NCBI GenBank assembly: GCA_947626515.1
Contig: CANQSL010000010.1
Span: forward strand, 1 to 35,561
Direction: 5' to 3'
Length of the DNA: 35,561 bases
From: an uncultured Bacilli bacterium
Lineage (GTDB): Bacteria > Bacillota_I > Bacilli_A > RF39 > UBA660
Positions 2,769 to 24,612 of this stretch are shown one piece after another; positions within the stretch are counted from its first letter, which is position 1, and every line of letters begins with the position of its first letter. Under the pieces are notes generated by a model that worked only from the letters and a program-made list of their open reading frames with translations, searched no databases and was not told the DNA's origin. Made by a program: the position numbers and the translations under genes.

Positions 2769-4133
2769 ATGAAAAAGTTATGGTTTTTAATAGTACTTTG
2801 GAGTACTAAATTTGGTTTAGTTTTATGTAAGATTTTTAAAAAAAATGGAACAATGATTGCTGGTAAAGTAGCTTTGAAATTTCAAAGTGATTTTATTAAA
2901 TATTTTAAAGGTATCAATTATGATAAAGTAATATTTATAACTGGTACTAATGGAAAATCAACAACAAATAATATAATTGTTCATACATTAAAAACTGCTG
3001 GTAAGAAAGTAACTACTAATTTAGAAGGAGCTAATCTTATTACTGGTGTTGCAACTGCTTTAATTAAAGATTCTACACTTACTGGTAAAATAAATAGTGA
3101 ATTTTTTGTATTTGAAACAGATGAGAGATATTTAAAGAGAATATATGAAGCTATACCTGCTAAAAATATATGTATAACTAATATTCAAAAAGATCAAGTT
3201 CAAAGAAATGGAGAACCTGATTATATTTATAAAAAAATTAAAGAAGTAATAAATAAAGATGTAAGAATATTTGTAAATAATGAAGAAGCTAGAGCTAAAT
3301 CATTTGAAAAATTTACTGATAATGTTATTTATTATAGTGTTGCTAGAAATGATAAGTCATATGAAAAAACTAGTTTTTATGATGTAACTATGCCTTGTCC
3401 AGTTTGTAATAGCAAAATACATTTTAATTATTACAATATAGATAATGTTGGAGATTTTAAATGTAGTAGATGTGGTTTTAAAAGTGAAAAGAAACCAAAT
3501 TATAAAATATCTAAAATAGATTATAAGAATAATGAATTTATATGTAATAATGAAAAATATTCATATGTATATAGTCAACCATTTTTTATGTATAATTATG
3601 CACTTGCTATAGCAGTATGTAAAGAGTTTAATATAAAATATAGTGATATAAAAGAAGCTTTTAAAACTTTTAAAAATATTGCAGGAAGATTAGAAACTAT
3701 AAAATATAAAACTAAAGAAATAAAGTATATTAGAATGAAACAGGAAAATCCAGAAACATTACAATCTGCTTTTGATTATATTGCAAAAGATAAAAGTAAA
3801 AAGATATTTATGTTGGGATTAGAACAATTAGAAGATTTTAAACCATATTATACTAATACGTTTTATTCTTTTGATTGTAATCTAGATTCATTAATTGATT
3901 CTAATATAGAAAAATATATATGTTTTTCTAAAGCAGTAAGCTATGATACTGCAAATAGATTAATATATGCTGGAGTGCCTAAGGAAAAGATAGTAATACT
4001 TCCAACTGATAGCAATGAAGCTATATTTGAAGAGTTAGATAAAATAGATATAGATAATATTTATTTGATAACTTGGTTACATAAATATGAAGAGTTAATA
4101 AGGGATGTAGCTAATTTAAAAGAGGGTGAATAA
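2769..4133 (+). CDS. MurT-like Mur ligase-family protein (lipid II isoglutaminyl synthase ligase-subunit family)
   Basis: P-loop 'ITGTNGKSTTNNII', Mur ligase 'ICITNIQKDQVQRNGEPDYIY', Zn-ribbon 'CPVC...CSRC', C-terminal DUF1727-like region 'SYDTANRLIYAGVPKEKIVILP'. Confidence 0.88.
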   Translation: MKKLWFLIVLWSTKFGLVLCKIFKKNGTMIAGKVALKFQSDFIKYFKGINYDKVIFITGTNGKSTTNNIIVHTLKTAGKKVTTNLEGANLITGVATALIKDSTLTGKINSEFFVFETDERYLKRIYEAIPAKNICITNIQKDQVQRNGEPDYIYKKIKEVINKDVRIFVNNEEARAKSFEKFTDNVIYYSVARNDKSYEKTSFYDVTMPCPVCNSKIHFNYYNIDNVGDFKCSRCGFKSEKKPNYKISKIDYKNNEFICNNEKYSYVYSQPFFMYNYALAIAVCKEFNIKYSDIKEAFKTFKNIAGRLETIKYKTKEIKYIRMKQENPETLQSAFDYIAKDKSKKIFMLGLEQLEDFKPYYTNTFYSFDCNLDSLIDSNIEKYICFSKAVSYDTANRLIYAGVPKEKIVILPTDSNEAIFEELDKIDIDNIYLITWLHKYEELIRDVANLKEGE

Positions 4134-4871
4134 ATGGAAAAATTAAATATAACTTGGTGTTATCCAGACATATTAAGTTTACATGGCGATCGTGGTAATA
4201 TTATGGCTTTAAAAAAAGTAGCGGAAATGTTAAATATAGAAGTTGAAATAAATAGAATAGATAATTATGATGATCTAATAGATTTTAAAAAAACTGATAT
4301 ATTACTTTTTAATCCAGGAGAATTAAAGACGGTTCCTAATATAATAGAAGCATTAAAAAAACAAATTGATGATTTAAAAGAATATGTTAATAAAAATAAA
4401 GTATTGATTGTAATTGGAACAACTGGGGCTGCTTTTGGAAAAGAGATAGTTAAATTAGATAGTACTAAAATAGAGGGATTAGGATTATTAGATATGGTTA
4501 CTTATGAAAGAGAGAATATTTTAGGCGATGATTTAATTATAAAATTAAAAGATAATGATATTGAGTTAAATGGTAGTCAAATTCAAGTAATAGATACTAA
4601 ATTAGATTCTAATATAGAATTAGCTAAAGTAGAATATGGTTATGGAAATAATGGATATGAAAATAAATTAGAGGGTGCTAAAAATAATAATTTAATATTT
4701 ACTAATATGTTAGGACCTCTTTTTGTAAAAAATCCTTGGTATGCTGAATTATTAATTAAAAAAGCTATGGAAAATAAAAAAGTTAATATTAAAGAAAAGA
4801 TATCTAAAGAGAGTTTTGAGATAGAATATAAATCTTTAGAAGCAATAAAAAAATATAACGAAGAAAAGTAG
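4134..4871 (+). CDS. GatD-like class I glutamine amidotransferase fold protein, apparently without catalytic Cys/His
   Basis: GatD-like 'DILSLHGDRGNIMALKK', 'IEGLGLLDM', 'VEYGYGNNGYENKLEGA', 'LGPLFVKNPWYAELLI'. Starts immediately after the MurT-like stop codon. Confidence 0.85.
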   Translation: MEKLNITWCYPDILSLHGDRGNIMALKKVAEMLNIEVEINRIDNYDDLIDFKKTDILLFNPGELKTVPNIIEALKKQIDDLKEYVNKNKVLIVIGTTGAAFGKEIVKLDSTKIEGLGLLDMVTYERENILGDDLIIKLKDNDIELNGSQIQVIDTKLDSNIELAKVEYGYGNNGYENKLEGAKNNNLIFTNMLGPLFVKNPWYAELLIKKAMENKKVNIKEKISKESFEIEYKSLEAIKKYNEEK

Positions 4872-4878
4872 GTGTATT

Positions 4879-5940
4879 ATGTATCCTGTTGTAGAAATAA
4901 ATATAAATAATATATTAGATAATATAAGTAAAGTTAATTTATTATGTAAAAATAATAATATAAAGCTTTCATTAGTAACTAAGTTATTATCTGATAATGT
5001 ATCTTTAGTTGAAAAAATAGTTAGTACTGGTATAAGTTGTATATGTGATTCTAGAATGGAAAATTTAAAATCATATAAAGATATAGATATTGAAAAGTGG
5101 CTTATTAGATTACCAATGATAAGTGAAATTGAAGATGTAGTTAAATATACTAATGCAAGTTTAAATACAGAAATCTCTACTATAATAGCTTTAAATGAAG
5201 AATCTAAAAAACAAAATAAGATTCATAATATTATTTTGATGTATGAATTAGGTGATTTAAGAGAAGGATGTAGTAAAGAAGAATTAGATTATATAATAGA
5301 AGAAACAAAAAAATTAAGTAATATAAATATTTATGGTATTGGTGTTAATTTAAGTTGTTATGGTGAAATAGTTCCAAATAGTAAAAATATGGATGAATTT
5401 TCTCAATTAGTATCATATTTAGAAAATAAGCATGATATTAAATTTGAGATAGTTTCTGGAGGTAATTCTAGTTCTTATAATTTATTAAAAGAAGAAAAAT
5501 TACCTAAAGTTATAAATAATTTAAGATTTGGTGAGTCTATTTTTTTAGCTAATGTACCATGTTTTGAAAAAAATATAGAGGAATTATATAAAGATAATTT
5601 TATACTAAAAGCAGAAATAATAGAATTAAAAGAAAAACCATCTATTCCTTGGGGAGAAAGAGGAGTATGTAATTCTTTTTCTGAAAGTGGTGTATTTATA
5701 GATAGAGGAATTAGGAAAAGAGCAATAATTGCTTTAGGAAAACAAGATGTTAGATTAGATGGATTAAATCCATTTGACAAAGATATAATTATATTGGGAG
5801 GAAGTAGTGATCACATTATTTTAGATGTTACAGATAGTAAAAATAATTATAAGGTAGGAGACATAATAGAGTTTCATTTAAATTATGCTGCTATTTTAAA
5901 TTTGATGACATCGAAATATGTTAATAGAAAGTTGATATGA
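4879..5940 (+). CDS. PLP-dependent amino acid racemase, ornithine racemase (Orr)-like
   Basis: Alanine racemase N-domain fold with PLP Lys in 'LSLVTK'; 'MYELGDLREG', 'VSGGNSSSY', 'LRFGES', 'DRGIRKRAIIALGKQDV', 'GGSSDHIILDVTDSKNNYKVGDIIEF' match the ornithine racemase-type family. Confidence 0.85.
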   Translation: MYPVVEININNILDNISKVNLLCKNNNIKLSLVTKLLSDNVSLVEKIVSTGISCICDSRMENLKSYKDIDIEKWLIRLPMISEIEDVVKYTNASLNTEISTIIALNEESKKQNKIHNIILMYELGDLREGCSKEELDYIIEETKKLSNINIYGIGVNLSCYGEIVPNSKNMDEFSQLVSYLENKHDIKFEIVSGGNSSSYNLLKEEKLPKVINNLRFGESIFLANVPCFEKNIEELYKDNFILKAEIIELKEKPSIPWGERGVCNSFSESGVFIDRGIRKRAIIALGKQDVRLDGLNPFDKDIIILGGSSDHIILDVTDSKNNYKVGDIIEFHLNYAAILNLMTSKYVNRKLI

Positions 5941-6812
5941 AAAAAATAGATATAATTCAAGCTAGAAGTGATTTGGGAGTGCATGTTGATGGAGCTGATA
6001 TAGGGCCGATAAATATATGTAAAAACTTAGATAGGGGAAAAATAAATGATATATATGTAGTTAATAAAAATTGTGATACTAAAGAGAAAGATAAAAATAA
6101 TTTAAAAAAGAACTTAAGTACTGTTAATTTATTTAATAAAGAATTATATGAAAAAGTAAGTAATATTTTAAAACAGGATAATATACCTCTAACTTTAGGA
6201 GGAGATCATTCTATAGTAATAGCGAGTGCTTTAGCATCTATAAAAAAATATAAGAAATTAGGTATTATATGGGTAGATGCTCACGGAGATTTTAATACAT
6301 TTAAGACTACATTAACTGGAAATATTCATGGACTTCCTTTAGCTGTTATAACTGGATATGAAAAAATGTTATTATCAGAATTTCATGAAGGAAATTATTA
6401 TCCATATGAAAATACAGTAATAATTGGTGCAAGAGATTTAGATGATCTAGAGATAAAAAATTTAAAAGATGCTAATATAACTGTATTTACAACAGAAGAT
6501 ATAAAAAAATATGGAGCGGCTAATATTACAAAAAAAGCAATAAATATCGCTAGTAAAGATACTTTAGGAATACATATAAGTTATGATATAGATGTAATAG
6601 ATCCTATTATTGCACCAGGAGTATCTATTCCTGCAAAGAATGGAATTAATATAGATGAAGCTTATGAAATATTAAATACATTATTAGAAGTTGACAATGT
6701 AAAATCAATAGATGTTGTAGAATATAATCCAATAAAAGATATAGATAATAAAACTTATAAAATAACTTATAATATAGTTAATAAAATAATAGATAAAATA
6801 AATAAAATGTAA
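5937..6812 (+). CDS. Arginase (ureohydrolase family)
   Basis: 'LGGDHSI', 'WVDAHGDFNT', 'TGNIHGLPLAV', 'SYDIDVIDPIIAPGVSIP', 'VVEYNPIKD': Mn-ligand motifs intact. ATGA overlap with the racemase gene. Confidence 0.88.
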   Translation: MKKIDIIQARSDLGVHVDGADIGPINICKNLDRGKINDIYVVNKNCDTKEKDKNNLKKNLSTVNLFNKELYEKVSNILKQDNIPLTLGGDHSIVIASALASIKKYKKLGIIWVDAHGDFNTFKTTLTGNIHGLPLAVITGYEKMLLSEFHEGNYYPYENTVIIGARDLDDLEIKNLKDANITVFTTEDIKKYGAANITKKAINIASKDTLGIHISYDIDVIDPIIAPGVSIPAKNGINIDEAYEILNTLLEVDNVKSIDVVEYNPIKDIDNKTYKITYNIVNKIIDKINKM

Positions 6813-6958: not shown

Positions 6959-8665
6959 ATGAAGAACATAATAAACAAAGTTGGGGTAATTGGTTTAATA
7001 ATAGCAATGTTAGTTCCTTTTGTAGAAGTTCCTGTTGTAAATGCCTTAGAAGATGGTTGTACTAGACATCTACAATCTTATTTCTTCTTAGATTTCTTTT
7101 CTACAGCACAAGCTTATGATAGTGATAGAAAAGTATATGATAGTACTACAGGGAAAACTTATTATACCGATGGATATACAACATATACTAACTTCCCATT
7201 TGTCTTTGATACAGCAACAGATGGAGAAAAGGTAACAGTTGAATCAATTGATTTTTATAATTTATCTGATAAAACTGATAGTAAATATGATGATGATAAA
7301 TATCCAGATGATTTATTAAATTATTGGGATAGATATAACAGGTTAGTTGTTTCACAAAATGAATCAAGTGGTTCAATTAAGAGATCAGCAAAATATTGTA
7401 ATACTAAAACAGGAAGAGGATGCTCAGAATACAATTTAAAAGGTGGAGCATTAGTAAGTACGCCAGCTAAACGTGAAGAAGATTATTATGATACTATAAC
7501 TGATTTGATACACGGCGTATGGGCAAGACAAAGTGCAACTGGTACTATGGAAATAATGGATTGGGAAAAAACTGATCCAAAAGATGGAGTTGAGTATTCA
7601 TATCAATATGCCTTTAGTAAAGATGCAGTAGATGAAATGAAGGCATCAATCGGTACTGCAAAATTTGAAGGTGGAAGCGATAGAGATGGCTATAAATTTA
7701 GCGATGGAAATGAAGATTTGAGTGCTGACTATTTAAATGATATATTAAGTGATGTTGAAGGTGCACTTGACGATAATAGATTATGGGAAGATGAAGGAGA
7801 ATACTTCTTACCATTAAGTATCACTAGAAAAATTGACAAGGCTGAAGTTTTTGATCAAGCATACTATTATATAGTATTAGGTCAAAATGCTTATTACTTC
7901 AGTACTTCAAAAGACAAATTAGAAAATAGCTTTAAAGCGTATAGTGATGCAGTAAATTACGGATTAGCAGAAGTAGATCTTGATACTTTAACAAAAGCTG
8001 CATCTGGAACTAGTAGTGGTGTCGACGAAAAAATAAAAAAAGAAGAAGATTCAGATATAGTTTCTATTAAATTTAAAGAAAATGGTCAAGAAGACAATGA
8101 TGAAACAGTTTATTTAATAAGTGTAAATGCAGACAAAATTGACGTTAATGAAACAGTTGAAGGTGAGTCTCAATTAGAAGTAAGACCATTTGAAAGTGAT
8201 GGTAAAACATATTATGCATTCCAATATTATTGGCCATTTGTATTCAATGTTGAATATACAGTATGTCCTACAAATGTATCTTCAGATGATCCTACAACTG
8301 AAGTATGGACTTTAAAATATGATGGAAACGTTGATGATAATTCAGTTTCTGGATTACCTAGTTCACAAACAGAACCAGTAGGAACAAAGATTACTGTTTC
8401 TAAAACTAAACCAAAAAGAAGTGGATATACATTCAAGGGATGGTGTGAAGATCCTAAAGGAAAGAAATGTTATGAAGCTGGAGATAAAATAAGTGATGAC
8501 GGTCCTGGAGTTAAATATTTATATGCTAACTGGGGAGAAGAAGGAACTAAAGATAATCCTCCAACTGGTGTAATATCTTATGTTATTGGATTTGCTGGTA
8601 TTGGGTTAATTGCTGGTGGAATTTATATAATAACAAAGAAAAAGAATTTCTTTAAACAAATTTAA
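6959..8665 (+). CDS. Secreted cell-wall-anchored protein with InlB B-repeat-like domain and NPPTG sortase-type signal
   Basis: N-terminal signal peptide; 'KYDGNVDDN...GYTFKGWCEDPKGKKCYEAGDKIS...LYANW' repeat; C-terminal 'NPPTG-VISYVIGFAGIGLIAGGIYII-TKKKNFFK'. Confidence 0.8.
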   Translation: MKNIINKVGVIGLIIAMLVPFVEVPVVNALEDGCTRHLQSYFFLDFFSTAQAYDSDRKVYDSTTGKTYYTDGYTTYTNFPFVFDTATDGEKVTVESIDFYNLSDKTDSKYDDDKYPDDLLNYWDRYNRLVVSQNESSGSIKRSAKYCNTKTGRGCSEYNLKGGALVSTPAKREEDYYDTITDLIHGVWARQSATGTMEIMDWEKTDPKDGVEYSYQYAFSKDAVDEMKASIGTAKFEGGSDRDGYKFSDGNEDLSADYLNDILSDVEGALDDNRLWEDEGEYFLPLSITRKIDKAEVFDQAYYYIVLGQNAYYFSTSKDKLENSFKAYSDAVNYGLAEVDLDTLTKAASGTSSGVDEKIKKEEDSDIVSIKFKENGQEDNDETVYLISVNADKIDVNETVEGESQLEVRPFESDGKTYYAFQYYWPFVFNVEYTVCPTNVSSDDPTTEVWTLKYDGNVDDNSVSGLPSSQTEPVGTKITVSKTKPKRSGYTFKGWCEDPKGKKCYEAGDKISDDGPGVKYLYANWGEEGTKDNPPTGVISYVIGFAGIGLIAGGIYIITKKKNFFKQI

Positions 8666-13103: not shown

Positions 13104-13115
13104 GAGGTGAAAAAA

Positions 13116-14189
13116 GTGAAATTTAATATAGGATGGGGAATTACAAATTGCTGTAATATGAATTGTAAATTTTGTTATAGTAAGGAAACTAGACAATTAA
13201 CAAAAGAAATTACTATAAATGATTGGATTAAATTCATAGATGAAAATTATGAAAAAATTGATTCAATTAATTATGGAACTGGAGAAAATGTAATAGATGA
13301 TGATTTTTTTGAATTTATAGAATATGTTAGACACAATTATCCAAAAATTACTCAATCTTTAACAACTAATGGATATTTATACGAAAAAGTAAGTTTAAAT
13401 AAGAGATTTTATAATATTTATAAAGAATGTATTGATGAAGTAGATGTATCTTTAGATTTTTCTGCTCCTGAAAAACATAATTATTTTAGAGGCCAAAATA
13501 AAGCGTATAATTGGGCTATAAATACTTTAGGAATGTTAAAAAAAGATAATAAAAAAGCTACAATAGTTTTTGTTGGAATTGAAGATACTATGTCAAAAGA
13601 AAATATAGATGGGTTATTTAAAATTGCAAAAGCTTACAATGCTTTGCTAAGATTAAATATATATAGACCAGTAAGTCAAGATATGACAATAAATGAGAGA
13701 TTTATTTTAAGTTATAAAACTTTAATAGAAACTTTAGAATATATTAATAATAAATATGAAGTTATTTCTATAAATGATATATTGCTAGGTAACATGTATG
13801 CTAAAGATTCTAATATTGAGGAAAATACTGGTATAAATAGCATAAGAATATTAGCCGATGGTAGTATTTGTCCCTCAACTTACTTGATAAGTGAAAATTA
13901 TAGAAATAAGTTTAATATTAAACAAAAAAATGTTTTATCCACGATAAAATTTGATGATTTTATTGAAGCACCCATACCTAAGGAATGTGAAAAGTGTGAA
14001 ATAAAAAATTCTTGTAGAGGAGGAGTATTTGATAGACGTTTATTATGGTATAACACTCTCTTAAAAAGAGATCCTTATTGTCCTTATGAAAATAATGATA
14101 TTTTAAATAAGGAACAAATTAAAATTTTAAAAAAAGATAGAATTTCAGTACATGATGGTTATTTGCCTACAATATTTTTTAAAAGCTAG
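13116..14189 (+). CDS. Radical SAM protein with SPASM/twitch-type C-terminus
   Basis: 'CCNMNCKFCYSKE' contains CxxxCxxC; C-terminal 'CPSTYL...CEKCEIKNSCRGGVFDRR...DPYC'. GTG 13116 preferred over 13107 because GAGGTG then serves as SD. Confidence 0.88.
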   Translation: MKFNIGWGITNCCNMNCKFCYSKETRQLTKEITINDWIKFIDENYEKIDSINYGTGENVIDDDFFEFIEYVRHNYPKITQSLTTNGYLYEKVSLNKRFYNIYKECIDEVDVSLDFSAPEKHNYFRGQNKAYNWAINTLGMLKKDNKKATIVFVGIEDTMSKENIDGLFKIAKAYNALLRLNIYRPVSQDMTINERFILSYKTLIETLEYINNKYEVISINDILLGNMYAKDSNIEENTGINSIRILADGSICPSTYLISENYRNKFNIKQKNVLSTIKFDDFIEAPIPKECEKCEIKNSCRGGVFDRRLLWYNTLLKRDPYCPYENNDILNKEQIKILKKDRISVHDGYLPTIFFKS

Positions 14190-14198
14190 GGAGGAATT

Positions 14199-15038
14199 AT
14201 GTTAGAAGATTTTAAACCAGAAATTGTAATTATTTTAAGAAGTGATGAAATAATAAAAAAATTTAAGTTAAAACGAGTTACGATAAATACTTCTTTTGGA
14301 CCAGTACATAGATGCTATATAGGATATGTATATAACGTTCCTATATTAATTATTTATGGACGCTTTAATGGTGAAAAGGTTCCTTCTAATCAAATAAATT
14401 ATCAACAAACAATTGAAGTTGTTAAAATAGTTGGAGCAAATAAGCTTATAGGTACATTTGTAGTAGGTGGAATTAATCCAAAAATGCCACAGGGAAGTGT
14501 TTATATATTAGGTGATTTAATTGGCATAGGAAATTATGATATAAAATGGAATCAAACTGTTCCATTTCACAATGCTGAAATGTATGAACCATTTTGCTCA
14601 AATTTATCAAATCAATTATTAGAAGCATCAAAAAAAATGCCATTTCTTGTTAAAGATAAGGCAATATATGTTTGTTTTCATGGATATCCAAGAATAGAAA
14701 CAAAATCTGAACTAGAATTTTATAATAAAATGGGATGGGATATTGTTGGTCAAACTTGTGATCCAGAAGCTACTTTAGCTAGATTAAATCAAATTTGTTA
14801 TGCTGGTGTAGCTGTTCAGATTGATGACCCTAGTGGAAGATTAAATTATATTGAAAATTTAAAACAAAATAAAGAAACTGTTACTTATGTAGAGGATATA
14901 AAATCTTGTAGAGAAAGAACCACAAAAATTATACTACAATTTTTAAAAAATTATAGAAAATATGATTGTGACGTTTGTAATAAAATGATAAGAAAAAATA
15001 AAAATTTTAGAGAGTTTCCAGATTATTTTTATGAATAA
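14199..15038 (+). CDS. Purine nucleoside phosphorylase / MTA phosphorylase-family protein
   Basis: 'YGRFNGEKVPSNQINYQQTIEVVKIVGANKLIGTFVVGGI', 'YEPFCSNLSNQL', 'HGYPRIETKSELEFYNKMGWDIVGQTCDPEATLARLNQICYAGVAV' resemble the MTAP fold and motif order. Confidence 0.8.
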   Translation: MLEDFKPEIVIILRSDEIIKKFKLKRVTINTSFGPVHRCYIGYVYNVPILIIYGRFNGEKVPSNQINYQQTIEVVKIVGANKLIGTFVVGGINPKMPQGSVYILGDLIGIGNYDIKWNQTVPFHNAEMYEPFCSNLSNQLLEASKKMPFLVKDKAIYVCFHGYPRIETKSELEFYNKMGWDIVGQTCDPEATLARLNQICYAGVAVQIDDPSGRLNYIENLKQNKETVTYVEDIKSCRERTTKIILQFLKNYRKYDCDVCNKMIRKNKNFREFPDYFYE

Positions 15039-15050
15039 AGGAGTGATAAT

Positions 15051-15497
15051 ATGAAAGTATTTTTAGCTATGCCTTATTCTCAATTATGTGATTCAAATTA
15101 TAGAGTAAAAGAAAAATATAAAAATTTTTTTGAAAAATTAACATTAAGTTTAAAAGAAATTAATTGTGATTATTTTTTAGCTCACGAAAGAGAAAAATGG
15201 GGAAAGGCTTTTACTTCAAATATAGAAAGTACTAAAATTGATTATGAAACTATTAAAAATGTAGATTTGGTATGCGCTTTACCAGGAGTTCCCGTTTCAG
15301 GAGGGGTACACGTTGAAATAGGATGGGCTTCTGCAAATAAAAAGAGTATGAAAATATTTTTAAAAAAAGGATATAAATATTCACCAATGGTAACTGGTAT
15401 ACATTGTATTACCAACGCAGATTATATTTATTATAATGAAGATTATAGCGATGAATTGATAGAATTAATTTTAAAAGAAATAAAAAATTATAAATAG
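15051..15497 (+). CDS. Nucleoside 2-deoxyribosyltransferase-like protein
   Basis: 'VFLAMPYSQ' N-terminus, 'VDLVCALPGVPVSGGVHVEIGWASANKKSMKIFL' with the conserved Glu region of the family. Confidence 0.75.
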   Translation: MKVFLAMPYSQLCDSNYRVKEKYKNFFEKLTLSLKEINCDYFLAHEREKWGKAFTSNIESTKIDYETIKNVDLVCALPGVPVSGGVHVEIGWASANKKSMKIFLKKGYKYSPMVTGIHCITNADYIYYNEDYSDELIELILKEIKNYK

Positions 15498-15506
15498 GAG
15501 AAAAAA

Positions 15507-16466
15507 ATGTTATATGAGATAGAATTAAAAATAAAAGATTATGCTACATTAAAAGTATTTACAAATTATAAAATTATAAAAGATAATTTAATTAGTGAAA
15601 ATACCGTTATTAAAAGAACAATACCTATAACAAAAATAACATGTAATTTGATAGATAAAAAAAATATTATTTATAAGGATTCCATAATAATATTTAACAG
15701 TAATAAAAAAACAATGTTTTATGATAAAGAAAATAATGTGTCTGTTTTAAATGCTAAAGAAAATGAAATTAGATTTATGGATTTAGTATATATATCGTTA
15801 GCAATGTTTTCAAAATTATTAACAAAACAGAATAAATATTTATTACATAGCTCAGCTTTACTAAATCCATCTAATAAAGCAATAGCATTAGTTGGAGATG
15901 CAAACGCAGGTAAAACAAGTTTAGGATACGAATTGATATCAAATTATAATTATAAATTGATATCTAATGATCATTCTATAATTGGAATTGAGGATAATAA
16001 AGTAAAAATTTTCGGTGGCACTAAAGATATACAAATGAGATTAGGAGCTTGTGAATTATATTTTCCAGAGTTATATAAAAAAATAGAAGAACACCCAGAA
16101 GATAAGTGGAACAAAAAAATTATAATTAATGAAAAAATAAATCAAGATTGTATTTTATCTAACGATAAAGATATATCTGAAATGTCAAATATATATAGTA
16201 TAGTAACAGGAAATTTTAGTGAAAGTTTTTTAAAGAGAAAAGATAAAATAGATGAAGAGCTGTTTTTATATGAAAGTCTGTCAAAAATAATTAAAGGGAC
16301 TTATAATTATATTACTGGATTTGAATATCCAATGCCTTCTATGGAAACGGAGGAAATTTTAAATAATTTATTTAAGTTATGTAAAACTATATCTGATCAA
16401 TGTAAAGTTTATGAAGCAAAAGGCTCTATTAAATGCTTAGCAAAGGTGTTGAGTAAACAATGCTAA
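15507..16466 (+). CDS. HPr kinase-like P-loop ATPase
   Basis: 'LLHSSALL...AIALVGDANAGKTSLGYELI...YKLISNDHSIIGIED' Walker A and HPrK-like motif order. Confidence 0.7.
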   Translation: MLYEIELKIKDYATLKVFTNYKIIKDNLISENTVIKRTIPITKITCNLIDKKNIIYKDSIIIFNSNKKTMFYDKENNVSVLNAKENEIRFMDLVYISLAMFSKLLTKQNKYLLHSSALLNPSNKAIALVGDANAGKTSLGYELISNYNYKLISNDHSIIGIEDNKVKIFGGTKDIQMRLGACELYFPELYKKIEEHPEDKWNKKIIINEKINQDCILSNDKDISEMSNIYSIVTGNFSESFLKRKDKIDEELFLYESLSKIIKGTYNYITGFEYPMPSMETEEILNNLFKLCKTISDQCKVYEAKGSIKCLAKVLSKQC

Positions 16467-18025
16467 AGAAAAAAATAATTTTAACTACTTTATCTCCAAA
16501 AAGTCATAGAACTTCAGAAGAAAATTTGGGAATTGAATATTTAAAATCTTCTTTATTAAAAGAACACTTTGAAGTAGAAATAATTGATGCTTGGCTTAAT
16601 GAATATGATGTAGAAACAGTTTATGAAAAAATAATCAAAGAAAAAGATAATATTTTATTTATAGGAATATCATCTTATATGTCTAATACAAAACCAACTG
16701 TTGAATTAATAAACAAGCTTAAAGAAACCGATTCTAATATTATTATTGCTTGTGGGGGATTTGGTCCTACTTTTTATCCAATAGATTATTTAAAAGCTGG
16801 TGCTGATTACATATTAAGAGGTGAAGGTGAAAAATCTATATGTGAGTTGGCTAAGTGTATAAATGAAAGTCAAACACCATACGAAGTTAAAAATATAGGA
16901 TATATAGATAAAGAAAATAAAGTAAAACTTAATGATATGGAATGTTTAAATAATGATTTAGATTCATTACCTTTTCCAAGTAGAGATACTATGAGTGTAG
17001 TATTAAATAAAAAATCGACAGTTAATATGATAACTTCTAGAGGATGTTCTGGAAATTGTGAATTTTGTTCTGTTATATCTTTCTTTCGTTTAAGTGATGG
17101 AAAGATATGGAGGACAAGAAGCATAAAAAATATAGTTGATGAAATAGAAATTCTTTATAAGCAAGGTGTAAAATATATAAAAATGGTCGATGACTCTTTT
17201 ATTGATGGAATAAGAGATGAAAAATGGTGTGAAGAATTTGCTGATGAAATAGAAAGAAGAAACATAAAAGTTAAATTGAGAGGACAAATTCGTGCTGATA
17301 AGGTGAATGATTCTATATTATTTAATTTAAAAAGAGCTGGATTTTTTTCATTTGCTTGTGGGATAGAAAATGGTTCACAAACAGCATTGACAAGAATGAA
17401 CAAAAAAGCCACGTTGGCAGATAATAAAAAAGCTTTGGATTTATTTAAAAAATATGGATATATAATACAAATGGGATATATATTATTTGATAAAGAAACA
17501 ACTTATGAAGAATTAGTAGAAAATTATAATTTTATGGTGGAATATGATTTTGCAATAACAAAAGGGATTTTTTCAGAAATGTTTTCAGCAGAAGGAACTA
17601 GTTTAAATAAAAAGTTAAGAGAAGAAAATTCATTGCAAGAAGGAGATTTTATCACTAATAATAATAAATATAAAATAGATGATGAAGTTGTTAATAAAAT
17701 TTATTTGTGTTTAAAAAAGTGGCATAAGAGCCATAGCAAAATTTATGATATGACGATTGATCCGTTGACTGCTCCAAAAGCAATATCAAAAGAAGCAATG
17801 AAAGAATTTTATGATTATGCTATGGAATTAAAAAGAGAAGATTTGATTTTATTTAAAAAAATATTGATGCTAGCTAAAGATAAATCCTTAATAAATCTTG
17901 ATCAATTTATAAATGAATATATTTTAAATAAAAAGGGTTATTATGAAATGATAGAGGAAAAAGTAAAAAAATTATATAAAAAAAACGAACTTTTTTATAA
18001 TGCTCAGACAAACCCATTTATTTAA
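16460..18025 (+). CDS. B12-binding-type radical SAM protein
   Basis: N-terminal Rossmann-like domain 'LFIGISSYMSNTKPTVELI...IIACGGFGPTFYPIDYLKAGADYILRGEGE'; 'TSRGCSGNCEFCSV' CxxxCxxC; 'CGIENGSQTALTRMNK'. 7-nt overlap with the preceding gene. Confidence 0.88.
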   Translation: MLKKKIILTTLSPKSHRTSEENLGIEYLKSSLLKEHFEVEIIDAWLNEYDVETVYEKIIKEKDNILFIGISSYMSNTKPTVELINKLKETDSNIIIACGGFGPTFYPIDYLKAGADYILRGEGEKSICELAKCINESQTPYEVKNIGYIDKENKVKLNDMECLNNDLDSLPFPSRDTMSVVLNKKSTVNMITSRGCSGNCEFCSVISFFRLSDGKIWRTRSIKNIVDEIEILYKQGVKYIKMVDDSFIDGIRDEKWCEEFADEIERRNIKVKLRGQIRADKVNDSILFNLKRAGFFSFACGIENGSQTALTRMNKKATLADNKKALDLFKKYGYIIQMGYILFDKETTYEELVENYNFMVEYDFAITKGIFSEMFSAEGTSLNKKLREENSLQEGDFITNNNKYKIDDEVVNKIYLCLKKWHKSHSKIYDMTIDPLTAPKAISKEAMKEFYDYAMELKREDLILFKKILMLAKDKSLINLDQFINEYILNKKGYYEMIEEKVKKLYKKNELFYNAQTNPFI

Positions 18026-20939: not shown

Positions 20940-22097
20940 TTATTTTTTTAATACTTTTTTTGGGACACTATCAAAACTTAAATTCATAGCTAGCGAATGA
21001 TTTTTATAATTATTATCATCAGTAACTTCTTTTATTACTTCGATTGTAGGTGGTAGCATTAATTCATCTTCTAAATTATCTAATTCTATTTCTAATATTG
21101 CATAGTCTTTGCTAAATGGATATTCATCTAATTCAAAATATTGATTATTATAGACAAAACAATATCTTGTCTTTTTAATTGAATGTAAATTTGGATCTAT
21201 GCTAAGACTATGAGCAAGATATTCTTCATTAGAAATGACTCTTTCATATTCTATTCTTTCTTTTGGATCTTTACCTGTAATTTTTTCTGTATAGAAGAAT
21301 ATGAATCCATCTTCATTAGTTCCTCTTAATCTTATTCTTTTTTCTATATTTTCATTATCGCTTAATAAATAGTTTTGTATAATATAATTCTTGCTAATAA
21401 ATCCTAATTTGTTTAATTCTTCTTTAGTAGGTCTTTTTATTAAAAATTTTCTTTCTATTTCTTTTGGTGAAGGTTCTCCTAATAAATTGAAAACCTCTTT
21501 TGTTGCTTTTTTAATTTTTGTTTGATAATCTGTACTATTGTCAAATACTCTTAAATGTGGATGGCCTATCCAAGCTTCAAGAGTAATTTTGTCTTTTTCT
21601 CTAGCTTCTTTAGGGCTTTCTCTTCTTGCGGCATTATTTCCAACATCTGAGCTATTTGGATTATTCCATACATAGTATTTTTCAGCACCATTTGCAGCAG
21701 TTACTAAATGTAATACTGCATCATATCTAGATAAGACATCTGCAAATGTTAAATTACGTTTTTTTAACATTTTAACAAATTTATCTTTATCTATATAAGC
21801 TAATTGATCGATAAAGCCTCTATCACATAATATTACACTTTTATCCTTTTTTTCTGGATATAATTCTAAAAATTTATCTAATACAGCTTCATTATATAAT
21901 TGTGTATCTAAAACTAGTTCTTGAAAATCCTCTAATTTTATATTTTGATTACAACGTATTCCTGAGTTATATAGCTCAGTTGCAGCTTCATTGCAAATAA
22001 GAACTGTATATCCTCTAGAAGTAAGTTCATCATATAATTTAGACATTATATAAGTCTTTCCTCCACCAGGACCTCCTGTTACACATACTTTTAACAT
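20940..22097 (-). CDS. AAA/NadR-like P-loop ATPase fused to CYTH (triphosphate tunnel) domain
   Basis: 'VCVTGGPGGGKTYIMSKL', 'ILCDRGFIDQLAYI', then CYTH 'EIERKFLIKRP...EKRIRLRG...ERIEYERVIS...DEYPFSKDYAILEIELDN'. Confidence 0.85.
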   Translation of the reverse strand: MLKVCVTGGPGGGKTYIMSKLYDELTSRGYTVLICNEAATELYNSGIRCNQNIKLEDFQELVLDTQLYNEAVLDKFLELYPEKKDKSVILCDRGFIDQLAYIDKDKFVKMLKKRNLTFADVLSRYDAVLHLVTAANGAEKYYVWNNPNSSDVGNNAARRESPKEAREKDKITLEAWIGHPHLRVFDNSTDYQTKIKKATKEVFNLLGEPSPKEIERKFLIKRPTKEELNKLGFISKNYIIQNYLLSDNENIEKRIRLRGTNEDGFIFFYTEKITGKDPKERIEYERVISNEEYLAHSLSIDPNLHSIKKTRYCFVYNNQYFELDEYPFSKDYAILEIELDNLEDELMLPPTIEVIKEVTDDNNYKNHSLAMNLSFDSVPKKVLKK

Positions 22098-22203: not shown

Positions 22204-24612
22204 ATGAAAATTATTGCGATTGATGGTCCTAGTGGTGTAGGTAAAGGTGCTATAGCTAATTTGTTAGCAGAAAAGCTCAATTTTGAAAGACTTGATACAG
22301 GAGCTGTTTATAGATGCGTTACTTTACTTTGTATTGAAAATAATATAACTTTAAAAGAAGAAGATAAGATAATACATATAGCTAATAATTTAAATTTAGA
22401 AATAAAAGATAATGAGTTTTTTTTGAATAATAGAAATGTTTCTAAAAGAATAAGGGCTAAAGATGTAAGTGATATGGTGACTGAAGTTTCATCTATAGTA
22501 GAAGTAAGAAATATATTATCGTCAATTTTTAGAAATTTTGTAAAAGATAAAAATATAGTTGTTGATGGTAGAGATACAACAACTGCTTTATTTAAAGATG
22601 CCTATTTAAAATTTTATTTAGATGCTAATATGGATACAAGAGTTAAAAGAAGATATAATCAATCAATTGCTAATAATATAGATATTACATTTGATGAAGT
22701 AATTGACAATATTGGTAAGAGAGATTATAATGATACACATAAAAAAGTTGGTAAATTAATTAAATCAGATGATTCTATATATATAGATACATCGTATTTA
22801 AGTGAAGAACAAGTAATAAAAGAAATGTTAAAATTTATAGGAAGTGATAACGTGAATTTAAAAGATTTATACATAAAATATTTTGAAGATTTGGGACATA
22901 GACAAATACCGTCTGCACCAGTTGTGCCCGAAAATGATCCTTCTGTATTATTTAATACTGCTGGTATGCAACCTTTGATTCCTTATTTAATGGGAGAAGT
23001 TCATCCTTATGGAACAAGATTAGTAGATTATCAAAAATGTATTAGAACGAATGATTTAGATAATATAGGAGATACTTATCATCATACTTTTTTTGAAATG
23101 CTTGGTAATTGGAGTTTAGGAGATTATTTTAAAGAAGAGAGTATTACCTATAGTTTTAATTTTTTAACAAAAGTTTTAAATATTCCAGTTGAAAGATTAG
23201 CGGTAAGTGTATTTAAAGGAAATGAAAAGATAGAAAAAGATATAGAAACAAAAAAAATATGGCTTAGTTTAGGTATAAGTGAAAATAGAATACAAGAATT
23301 ATCTGATAATTTTTGGATAGCTGGAGATACTGGACCATGTGGACCCGATACTGAAATATTCTATTTTAGAAGTAATGATGAAATTCCAGAAAACTTTGAT
23401 TCAGAAGATGAAAGATGGGTTGAAATATGGAATAATGTATTTATGCAATATAATAAAGATAAAGATGGTAATTATAATGAACTTCCTAAAAAGAATGTCG
23501 ATACTGGAATGGGTGTTGAAAGAGTTGTTTCAATTTTAGAAGGAGTAGATGATAATTATTTATCTTCTATATGGAAAAGTACTATTTTTTTAATAGAAAA
23601 TATATCTAATAAAAAATATGTAGGCAATGAAGTAAGTATGAGAATTATTGCTGATCATATTAGAACTTCAGTATTTATTATTGCAGATCCGTCTGGAATT
23701 AAACCAAGCAATACAGATCAAGGATATATATTAAGAAGACTTATTAGACGTGCAATAAGACATGCAAAAAATTTAGATATAGATATATCTTCTAATTGGG
23801 AAGAGCAAATTGCTTTAAATATTATTGAAGAATATAAAAAATATTATAATGAATTAGAAGAAAATAAAGATATTGTTATAGAAGTTTTAAAAAATGAAAA
23901 AATAAAATTCAATAGAACTTTGGAAAAGGGTTTAAAAGAATTTGTCAATATAGTTAATAGATTAGAAAGCAATAAATTAGAAAAAGATGATGCATTTAGA
24001 TTATATGATACTTATGGATTTCCTATAGAATTAACAGTAGAATTATCTAAAGAGAGAAACATTGAAGTAGATGTAGAAGGATTTAAAGAAAAATTTAAGG
24101 CACATCAAGAATTATCTAGGGCAAATTCTCAGGCTAAATTTAAAGGTGGTCTTGCTTCAACTGGAGAGATTGAAACTAAATATCATACTGCAACACATCT
24201 TTTAAATGCAGCTTTAAAGAAAGTCATTAATAAAGATGTTCATCAAAAGGGAAGCAATATTACAAGTGAAAGAATGCGTTTTGATTTTTCGTGCGATCAT
24301 AAATTAACGGATGAAGAAAAAAAACAAACAGAAGAATTAGTAAATAAGTGGATAGATGAAGATTTAGTTGTAACAAAGGAAGAGATGGCTAAAGAAGAAG
24401 CTTTAAAAAGTGGTGCAGAATGTATGTTTATAGAAAAATATCCTGATATTGTTACCGTATATAGTATAGGAGATGTTTCAAAAGAACTTTGTGGAGGACC
24501 ACATGTTAAGAGTACAAAATGTTTAGGTCATTTTAAAATTATTAAAGAAGAAGCATCATCAAGTGGAGTAAGAAGAATAAAAGCTATTTTAGAATTTGAC
24601 AAAACAGCTTAA
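22204..24612 (+). CDS. Fusion protein: cytidylate kinase (approx. aa 1-216) + alanyl-tRNA synthetase lacking the C-terminal C-Ala domain (approx. aa 217-802)
   Basis: Cmk 'IAIDGPSGVGKGAIANLLAEKLNFERLDTGAVYR', 'VVDGRDTTTALF', 'RDYNDTHK'; AlaRS 'LFNTAGMQPLIPYLMG', 'YHHTFFEMLGNWSLGDYFK', 'IADHIRTSVFIIADG-like', editing 'HTATHLLNAAL' and 'CGGPHV'. One uninterrupted frame. Confidence 0.93.
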   Translation: MKIIAIDGPSGVGKGAIANLLAEKLNFERLDTGAVYRCVTLLCIENNITLKEEDKIIHIANNLNLEIKDNEFFLNNRNVSKRIRAKDVSDMVTEVSSIVEVRNILSSIFRNFVKDKNIVVDGRDTTTALFKDAYLKFYLDANMDTRVKRRYNQSIANNIDITFDEVIDNIGKRDYNDTHKKVGKLIKSDDSIYIDTSYLSEEQVIKEMLKFIGSDNVNLKDLYIKYFEDLGHRQIPSAPVVPENDPSVLFNTAGMQPLIPYLMGEVHPYGTRLVDYQKCIRTNDLDNIGDTYHHTFFEMLGNWSLGDYFKEESITYSFNFLTKVLNIPVERLAVSVFKGNEKIEKDIETKKIWLSLGISENRIQELSDNFWIAGDTGPCGPDTEIFYFRSNDEIPENFDSEDERWVEIWNNVFMQYNKDKDGNYNELPKKNVDTGMGVERVVSILEGVDDNYLSSIWKSTIFLIENISNKKYVGNEVSMRIIADHIRTSVFIIADPSGIKPSNTDQGYILRRLIRRAIRHAKNLDIDISSNWEEQIALNIIEEYKKYYNELEENKDIVIEVLKNEKIKFNRTLEKGLKEFVNIVNRLESNKLEKDDAFRLYDTYGFPIELTVELSKERNIEVDVEGFKEKFKAHQELSRANSQAKFKGGLASTGEIETKYHTATHLLNAALKKVINKDVHQKGSNITSERMRFDFSCDHKLTDEEKKQTEELVNKWIDEDLVVTKEEMAKEEALKSGAECMFIEKYPDIVTVYSIGDVSKELCGGPHVKSTKCLGHFKIIKEEASSSGVRRIKAILEFDKTA

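Follow-up and report, generated by a model that had tools for sequence, protein, structure and literature searches.

What does a GatD protein do after both catalytic residues of its glutaminase have been replaced? The question is raised by a stretch of DNA of 35,561 nucleotides (the window), in which a first-pass annotation had described a GatD-like protein with glycine at codon 95 in place of the nucleophile cysteine and leucine at codon 193 in place of the catalytic histidine. From this it had proposed that the subunit cannot release ammonia from glutamine and was repurposed, rather than decayed, as a scaffold or amine-binding partner. The neighbouring ornithine racemase and arginase genes and a link to peptidoglycan type had been overlooked.

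The gene lies in a tight operon of four genes on the + strand of the window, where it is preceded by a MurT gene and followed by genes for an ornithine racemase-like protein (Orr) and an arginase-family protein. We refer to the two ligase subunits of this type as variant MurT and variant GatD. The genes and their relevant sites are as follows.

2769..4133, + strand: variant MurT, 454 residues, a Mur-ligase-type ATP-dependent amide ligase (Pfam MurT_C 53.6 bits, Mur_ligase_M 37.1 bits; PDB MurT 7q8e, 2e-45; 38–68% identity to clade members)
2943..2963, + strand: ATP P-loop GTNGKST of variant MurT, residues 59–65, intact in alignments
3396..3473, + strand: Cys4 zinc ribbon of variant MurT (C210, C213, C232, C235), intact; C210, C213 and C232 are invariant and C235 nearly so
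3738..3764, + strand: loop KQENPETLQ of variant MurT, residues 324–332, in place of K-NPxGxN of ammonia-using MurT, with a two-residue insertion
3843..3866, + strand: loop PYYTNTFY of variant MurT, residues 359–366, in place of DGRDTSW, with Asn at the Asp349 position
4134..4871, + strand: variant GatD, 245 residues, a glutaminase-dead GatD by homology and AlphaFold model
4314..4322, + strand: PGE of variant GatD, residues 61–63, in place of the canonical GGG; Gly62 in 44/46 and Glu63 in 45/46 of the clade
4416..4418, + strand: codon of Gly95, aligned with catalytic Cys94; 46/46 clade members have Gly
4710..4712, + strand: codon of Leu193, aligned with catalytic His189; Leu in 45/45 clade members with data
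4879..5940, + strand: Orr, an ornithine racemase-like PLP protein, 353 residues (NCBIfam NF040742 442.7 bits, E 9e-133; invariant Lys35)
5937..6812, + strand: arginase-family ureohydrolase, L-arginine to L-ornithine (Pfam Arginase 191.8 bits; TIGR01229 206.2 bits, cut-off 227.6)

The MurT stop codon is directly followed by the GatD start, 7 bases separate GatD from Orr, and the end of Orr overlaps the beginning of the arginase gene. A mis-binned contig was rejected, as syntenic stretches in the right half of the window share 55–84% identity with a genus mate, much as other genes of this genome do. There is a small residual chance of an assembly join within the contig; the GC content of the operon is host-like.

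When aligned to Staphylococcus aureus GatD over residues 3–235 (phmmer 6e-21), the window protein has Gly95 at the position of Cys94 and Leu193 at that of His189, both as annotated, and the fold motifs quoted around them are present. The mutational literature bears directly on these sites. In S. aureus, lipid II is no longer amidated when GatD carries C94G or C94S, the residual glutaminase is suppressed by C94A or H189A, and activity drops severely with D349N of MurT, Asp349 being the third residue of the proposed relay (PMC6113224, PMC6085368). The window pair carries all three changes, namely Cys to Gly and His to Leu in GatD and Asp349 to Asn in MurT, so the earlier prediction that variant GatD would be unable to release ammonia from glutamine is supported by mutants at the equivalent sites of both subunits. 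An alternative catalytic pair that could rescue the activity was sought in window GatD and none is present, because its sole Cys and His are C9 and H17, and C9 is Cys in only 4 of the 46 clade members. Curated GatD models place the protein below their cut-offs (NF052463, 88.2 bits versus 450; NF045636, 78.9 versus 400), as does Pfam GATase_3 (24.8 versus 27).

Loss of the glutaminase is family-wide and not the mark of a lone decayed gene. The residue counts above come from 46 variant GatD sequences, 45 of which have data at the His site. In a MurT tree of 125 rows, built with a quick method, the variant MurT proteins form one side of a branch with 45 rows, an SH-aLRT of 100 and a stem of 0.99 changes per site. 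The dN/dS ratios of variant GatD, approximate since dS is high in several pairs, are mostly 0.06–0.13 among closer pairs and 0.20 between the window and a related locus from sheep rumen (L100), far below 1. The AlphaFold model has a pLDDT of 95.5, its top nine PDB matches in Foldseek are all GatD (TMq 0.80–0.89), and it superposes on 5n9m, 6gs2 and 6h5e with TM 0.87–0.89. Simple decay is rejected by the dN/dS ratios and the invariant replacement residues, and together with the intact GatD fold this purifying selection upholds the idea of a repurposed subunit.

The partner subunit is kept in some parts and rewritten in others. Domain search and alignments find the P-loop, the Mg-binding Glu, the Cys4 zinc ribbon and the MurT_C domain of variant MurT, and because the first three are kept, the protein should still activate a carboxyl group with ATP. 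On the other hand, it scores only 165.1 bits with the curated MurT model (cut-off 800), and two loops are rewritten across the clade. In the first loop, K-NPxGxN becomes KQENP(E/D)TLQ with two extra residues; in the second, DGRDTSW becomes xYxNTFY in most members. Asp349, which completes the glutaminase relay, is replaced by the Asn within YYTNTFY of the window, and this replacement is conserved in the clade. We assign the first loop to the amino-acid-binding region of Mur ligases from our own comparison with MurD and MurE. The counterpart of the second is the DNADD region, which is treated alongside the lysine-binding motif of MurE in PMC6113224. Both are where changes would be expected if the incoming nucleophile were an amino acid, not ammonia. 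Of the two roles suggested earlier for the dead subunit, the scaffold fits and amine binding is conjectural; the co-changed sites that would bind the incoming amino acid lie in MurT and not clearly in GatD.

Which amino acid would come in is suggested by the rest of the operon. Relatives of the operon were found by scanning contigs with the Orr alignment; a single-protein scan of the genome contigs with variant GatD gave no matches. A Clostridia MAG from sheep rumen (L100) has MurT-GatD-Orr of the variant type and an arginase, with identities to the window of 68% for MurT, 52% for GatD, 62% for Orr and 58% for arginase. A roe-deer Clostridia MAG (L112) has MurT-GatD-Orr, and the third clostridial contig, from a dairy-cow MAG (L101), has GatD-Orr alone at its end. 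Arginase is therefore found in two of the four operon loci, the window and L100. The remaining Orr loci in the same scan had no MurT or GatD nearby, and by our reading most other Bacilli Orr loci adjoin a protein resembling those of ornithine-fermentation operons.

The window Orr itself falls just short of the NF040742 cut-off of 480 bits. Its conserved Lys35 and overall fold motifs are present, and its GRETAYG motif reads ANVPCFE. In the two loci without arginase, Orr (L101:486-1520 and L112:6001-7029) lacks an internal segment of about 11 residues in the GERGVNAFGE region, and these two proteins are possibly altered in substrate or activity. Anaerofustis, which carries a window-type pair, has an Orr of 540.6 bits that passes the cut-off and adjoins arginine deiminase and ornithine carbamoyltransferase (OTC).

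In the GTDB family of the window, a GatD homologue is found in 24 of 58 genomes, and Cys and His are lost in nearly all of those, but these native dead pairs form a clade separate from the window clade, with motifs of their own: TGNS.ELFG and TYLLGP in GatD, DNVSRRY and KNENN in MurT. Like the window pair, they have lost Cys and His with the MurT P-loop usually intact (L003-L025, L035-L037, L042, L046, L055-L059 and L068, among which L008 and L015 are live); unlike it, they keep Asp349, and no linked racemase was seen at their loci. The window genome has a second pair of this native kind on contig C3 (L028:8316-10252), in which GatD is dead and MurT lacks the P-loop (GTSNKNEIA), so a canonical backup GatD in the same genome was rejected. 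The dN/dS of this MurT is 0.48–0.68 against genus mates that keep the P-loop, a sign of relaxed selection; in four genus mates the native pair is the sole pair and its P-loop is intact. The missing P-loop and relaxed selection of the native MurT suggest that the native pair has been replaced, most simply through acquisition of the window pair.

Other combinations of pairs were seen along the way. The genome of L112 has a second GatD (L184) in a half-dead state, with Cys lost (AIGTGYQ), His kept (YSHG) and canonical MurT motifs. The small genome G576 carries three MurT-GatD pairs (L188, L197 and L202) from three clades, all glutaminase-dead.

The association of the pair with Orr was examined in the order of Anaerofustis stercorihominis, in which 67 genomes were searched. 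Orr occurs in 41 of the 43 genomes with a window-type pair and in 4 of the 24 without (Fisher p 3.6e-11, which overstates independence because the genomes are related), and in none of the seven with live GatD only. The exceptions are G628, G638, G600, G631, G578 and G579; the window-type pair occurs without Orr in G638 and in G628, where a live pair is present as well, and four genomes have Orr without the pair. In G628 the live and the window-type dead pair are at L291 and L205. Separate occurrences outside this order (the window, L100, L112 and L101) add support, because the genes are adjacent there.

Within the order, E. limosum ATCC 8486 and A. woodii DSM 1030 have exactly one MurT-GatD pair each, and it is of the window type. 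In both, the pair is near glmM and glmS and Orr is not adjacent to it; in a related genome, a window-type pair is near a Mur ligase.

This distribution points to wall chemistry. Under the Schleifer-Kandler scheme, type-B walls carry the bridge amino acid in amide linkage on the α-carboxyl of D-Glu, which in type-A organisms, S. aureus among them, is the carboxyl amidated by MurT-GatD. Bridges of D-Lys/D-Orn are presumably present in E. limosum (formerly Butyribacterium rettgeri), and A. woodii has what we take to be type-B murein. A review lists Eubacterium, at genus level, as type B2α (PMC11382707); the E. limosum wall contains Ala, Glu, Lys, Orn and Ser (PMC4791908), and D-Orn is reported in the B2β walls of an actinobacterium (PMC5945732). 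Since the sole MurT-GatD of E. limosum and A. woodii is the window-type pair, with Eubacterium walls of B2 type at genus level, this pair is a strong candidate for attaching the D-amino-acid bridge of type B walls. A literature search found no paper that links MurT-GatD to type-B walls or names the enzyme attaching the type-B bridge to D-Glu, with prior work possible in the subscription literature, most of which lay outside the search.

From the losses, conservation, operon, Orr co-occurrence and distribution observed in the sequences, we infer a reaction, its acceptor and its D-amino acid. Variant MurT probably ligates D-ornithine (or D-lysine) to the D-Glu α-carboxyl, with variant GatD as a non-catalytic subunit. 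Arginase would convert L-arginine to L-ornithine, and Orr would convert this to D-ornithine, supplied from the same operon. MurT would activate the α-carboxyl of D-Glu, position 2 of the stem, with ATP as an acyl phosphate, bind the amino acid with its rewritten C-terminal loops, and join a free D-diamino acid, here most likely D-ornithine, instead of glutamine-derived ammonia. The pseudoenzyme GatD would be kept as a structural or interface subunit, perhaps positioning the C-terminal domain of MurT, and the product would be the first bond of the type-B (B2) interpeptide bridge. The main weak points are the unlinked Orr in E. limosum and A. woodii, the differences among Orr subfamilies and the exceptions to co-occurrence.

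Could the pair instead amidate D-Glu as before, but from free ammonium, with the glutaminase thus dispensable and Orr and arginase acting in the metabolism of ammonia, urea or ornithine? Ammonium can be plentiful in anaerobic gut habitats, and the ATP site and overall fold of MurT are kept. We consider this unlikely, however, as it does not account for why the amino-acid-pocket loops are rewritten and conserved, why the operon has a racemase or why Orr co-occurs with the pair; moreover, in type-B walls the α-carboxyl of D-Glu carries the bridge, and amidation there would block it. It is likewise improbable that the product lies outside peptidoglycan, a soluble D-ornithine amide or a polymer, made by joining D-Orn to a non-wall carboxyl. 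Mur-like ligases such as cyanophycin synthetase and CapB do act outside murein, and in the window the operon adjoins no wall gene, but E. limosum and A. woodii have no other MurT-GatD than this pair, which is next to or near glmM/glmS, it is found near a Mur ligase in a related genome, and Eubacterium walls are type B.

The ligase might also work as proposed on an amino acid other than D-ornithine, such as D-lysine, another D-amino acid or glycine, with the substrate of the Orr-like protein shifted. The sub-threshold score of the window Orr, its altered GRETAYG motif and the missing segment in L101 and L112 would fit, as would the presence of both Lys and Orn in the E. limosum wall; the adjacent arginase in the window and L100, and arginine deiminase/OTC beside the full-scoring Anaerofustis Orr, speak for ornithine and leave this reading a low probability. 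Far less credible still is that Orr and arginase serve D-ornithine catabolism next to a decaying amidotransferase brought there by chance. The fermentation-type neighbours of most other Bacilli Orr genes are in its favour, whereas the gene order conserved in four loci and dN/dS far below 1 are against it. An ornithine aminomutase domain was searched for in the window genome with no match, although the positive control gave no match either.

The pair can be set beside its closest known systems. With the lipid II isoglutaminyl synthase MurT-GatD of S. aureus and S. pneumoniae, it shares the two-gene arrangement, the MurT domains with zinc ribbon and P-loop, the GatD fold and presumably the acceptor carboxyl; it differs in the replaced Cys, His and Asp349, in PGE for GGG, in the rewritten amino-acid-pocket loops, in having a racemase and arginase in the operon, and in scoring far below the NCBIfam cut-offs. 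The proposed ATP-dependent ligation of a free amino acid resembles that of MurE and other amino-acid-adding Mur ligases, whose amino-acid-binding region matches the changed loops, but variant MurT clusters with the MurT proteins, whose C-terminal domain and zinc ribbon it shares, and its partner is a variant GatD. The window Orr shares the PLP fold and Lys35 with clostridial ornithine racemase, whereas its score, its GRETAYG replacement and its place in a wall-enzyme operon instead of the usual neighbourhood are different. Type B2 peptidoglycan, found in Eubacterium and Microbacteriaceae, is a structure and not a gene family; the link is that its chemistry needs a D-diamino acid on the D-Glu α-carboxyl, and our literature search found no ligase for that step.

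Type-B walls have been known for half a century from amino-acid chemistry, and a MurT-GatD variant with a proposed new reaction offers a concrete gene pair for them in genetically tractable acetogens. If the proposal is true, wall type would become predictable from the genomes of uncultured gut bacteria, and the pair would be a clear case of a glutamine amidotransferase that loses its glutaminase while the partner changes the amine donor. As a tentative extension, in which we have less confidence than in the proposal itself, dead MurT-GatD pairs in general, of the window clade and of other dead clades in uncultured Bacilli and Clostridia, may be the missing ligases for the first bridge amino acid on the D-Glu α-carboxyl, with the A/B division written in the GatD active site. 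A GatD with Cys and His would then indicate isoglutamine and type A, and one that has lost them, type B.

Several other genes of the window are unusual. Directly after the operon, 6959-8665 encodes a surface protein with a Listeria-Bacteroides repeat, PPTG and a C-terminal membrane segment, possibly wall-anchored. A single ORF at 22204-24612 fuses cytidylate kinase to alanyl-tRNA synthetase (Pfam); a genus mate matches only 589 of its 802 residues, and the fusion may be local. At 20940-22097 an AAA_28 kinase-like domain is fused with a CYTH domain. Finally, a cluster at 13107-18025, which might serve peptide modification, contains a radical SAM protein (SPASM-type maturase-like), an MTAP-like phosphorylase, a P-loop protein with no Pfam match and a B12-binding radical SAM protein.
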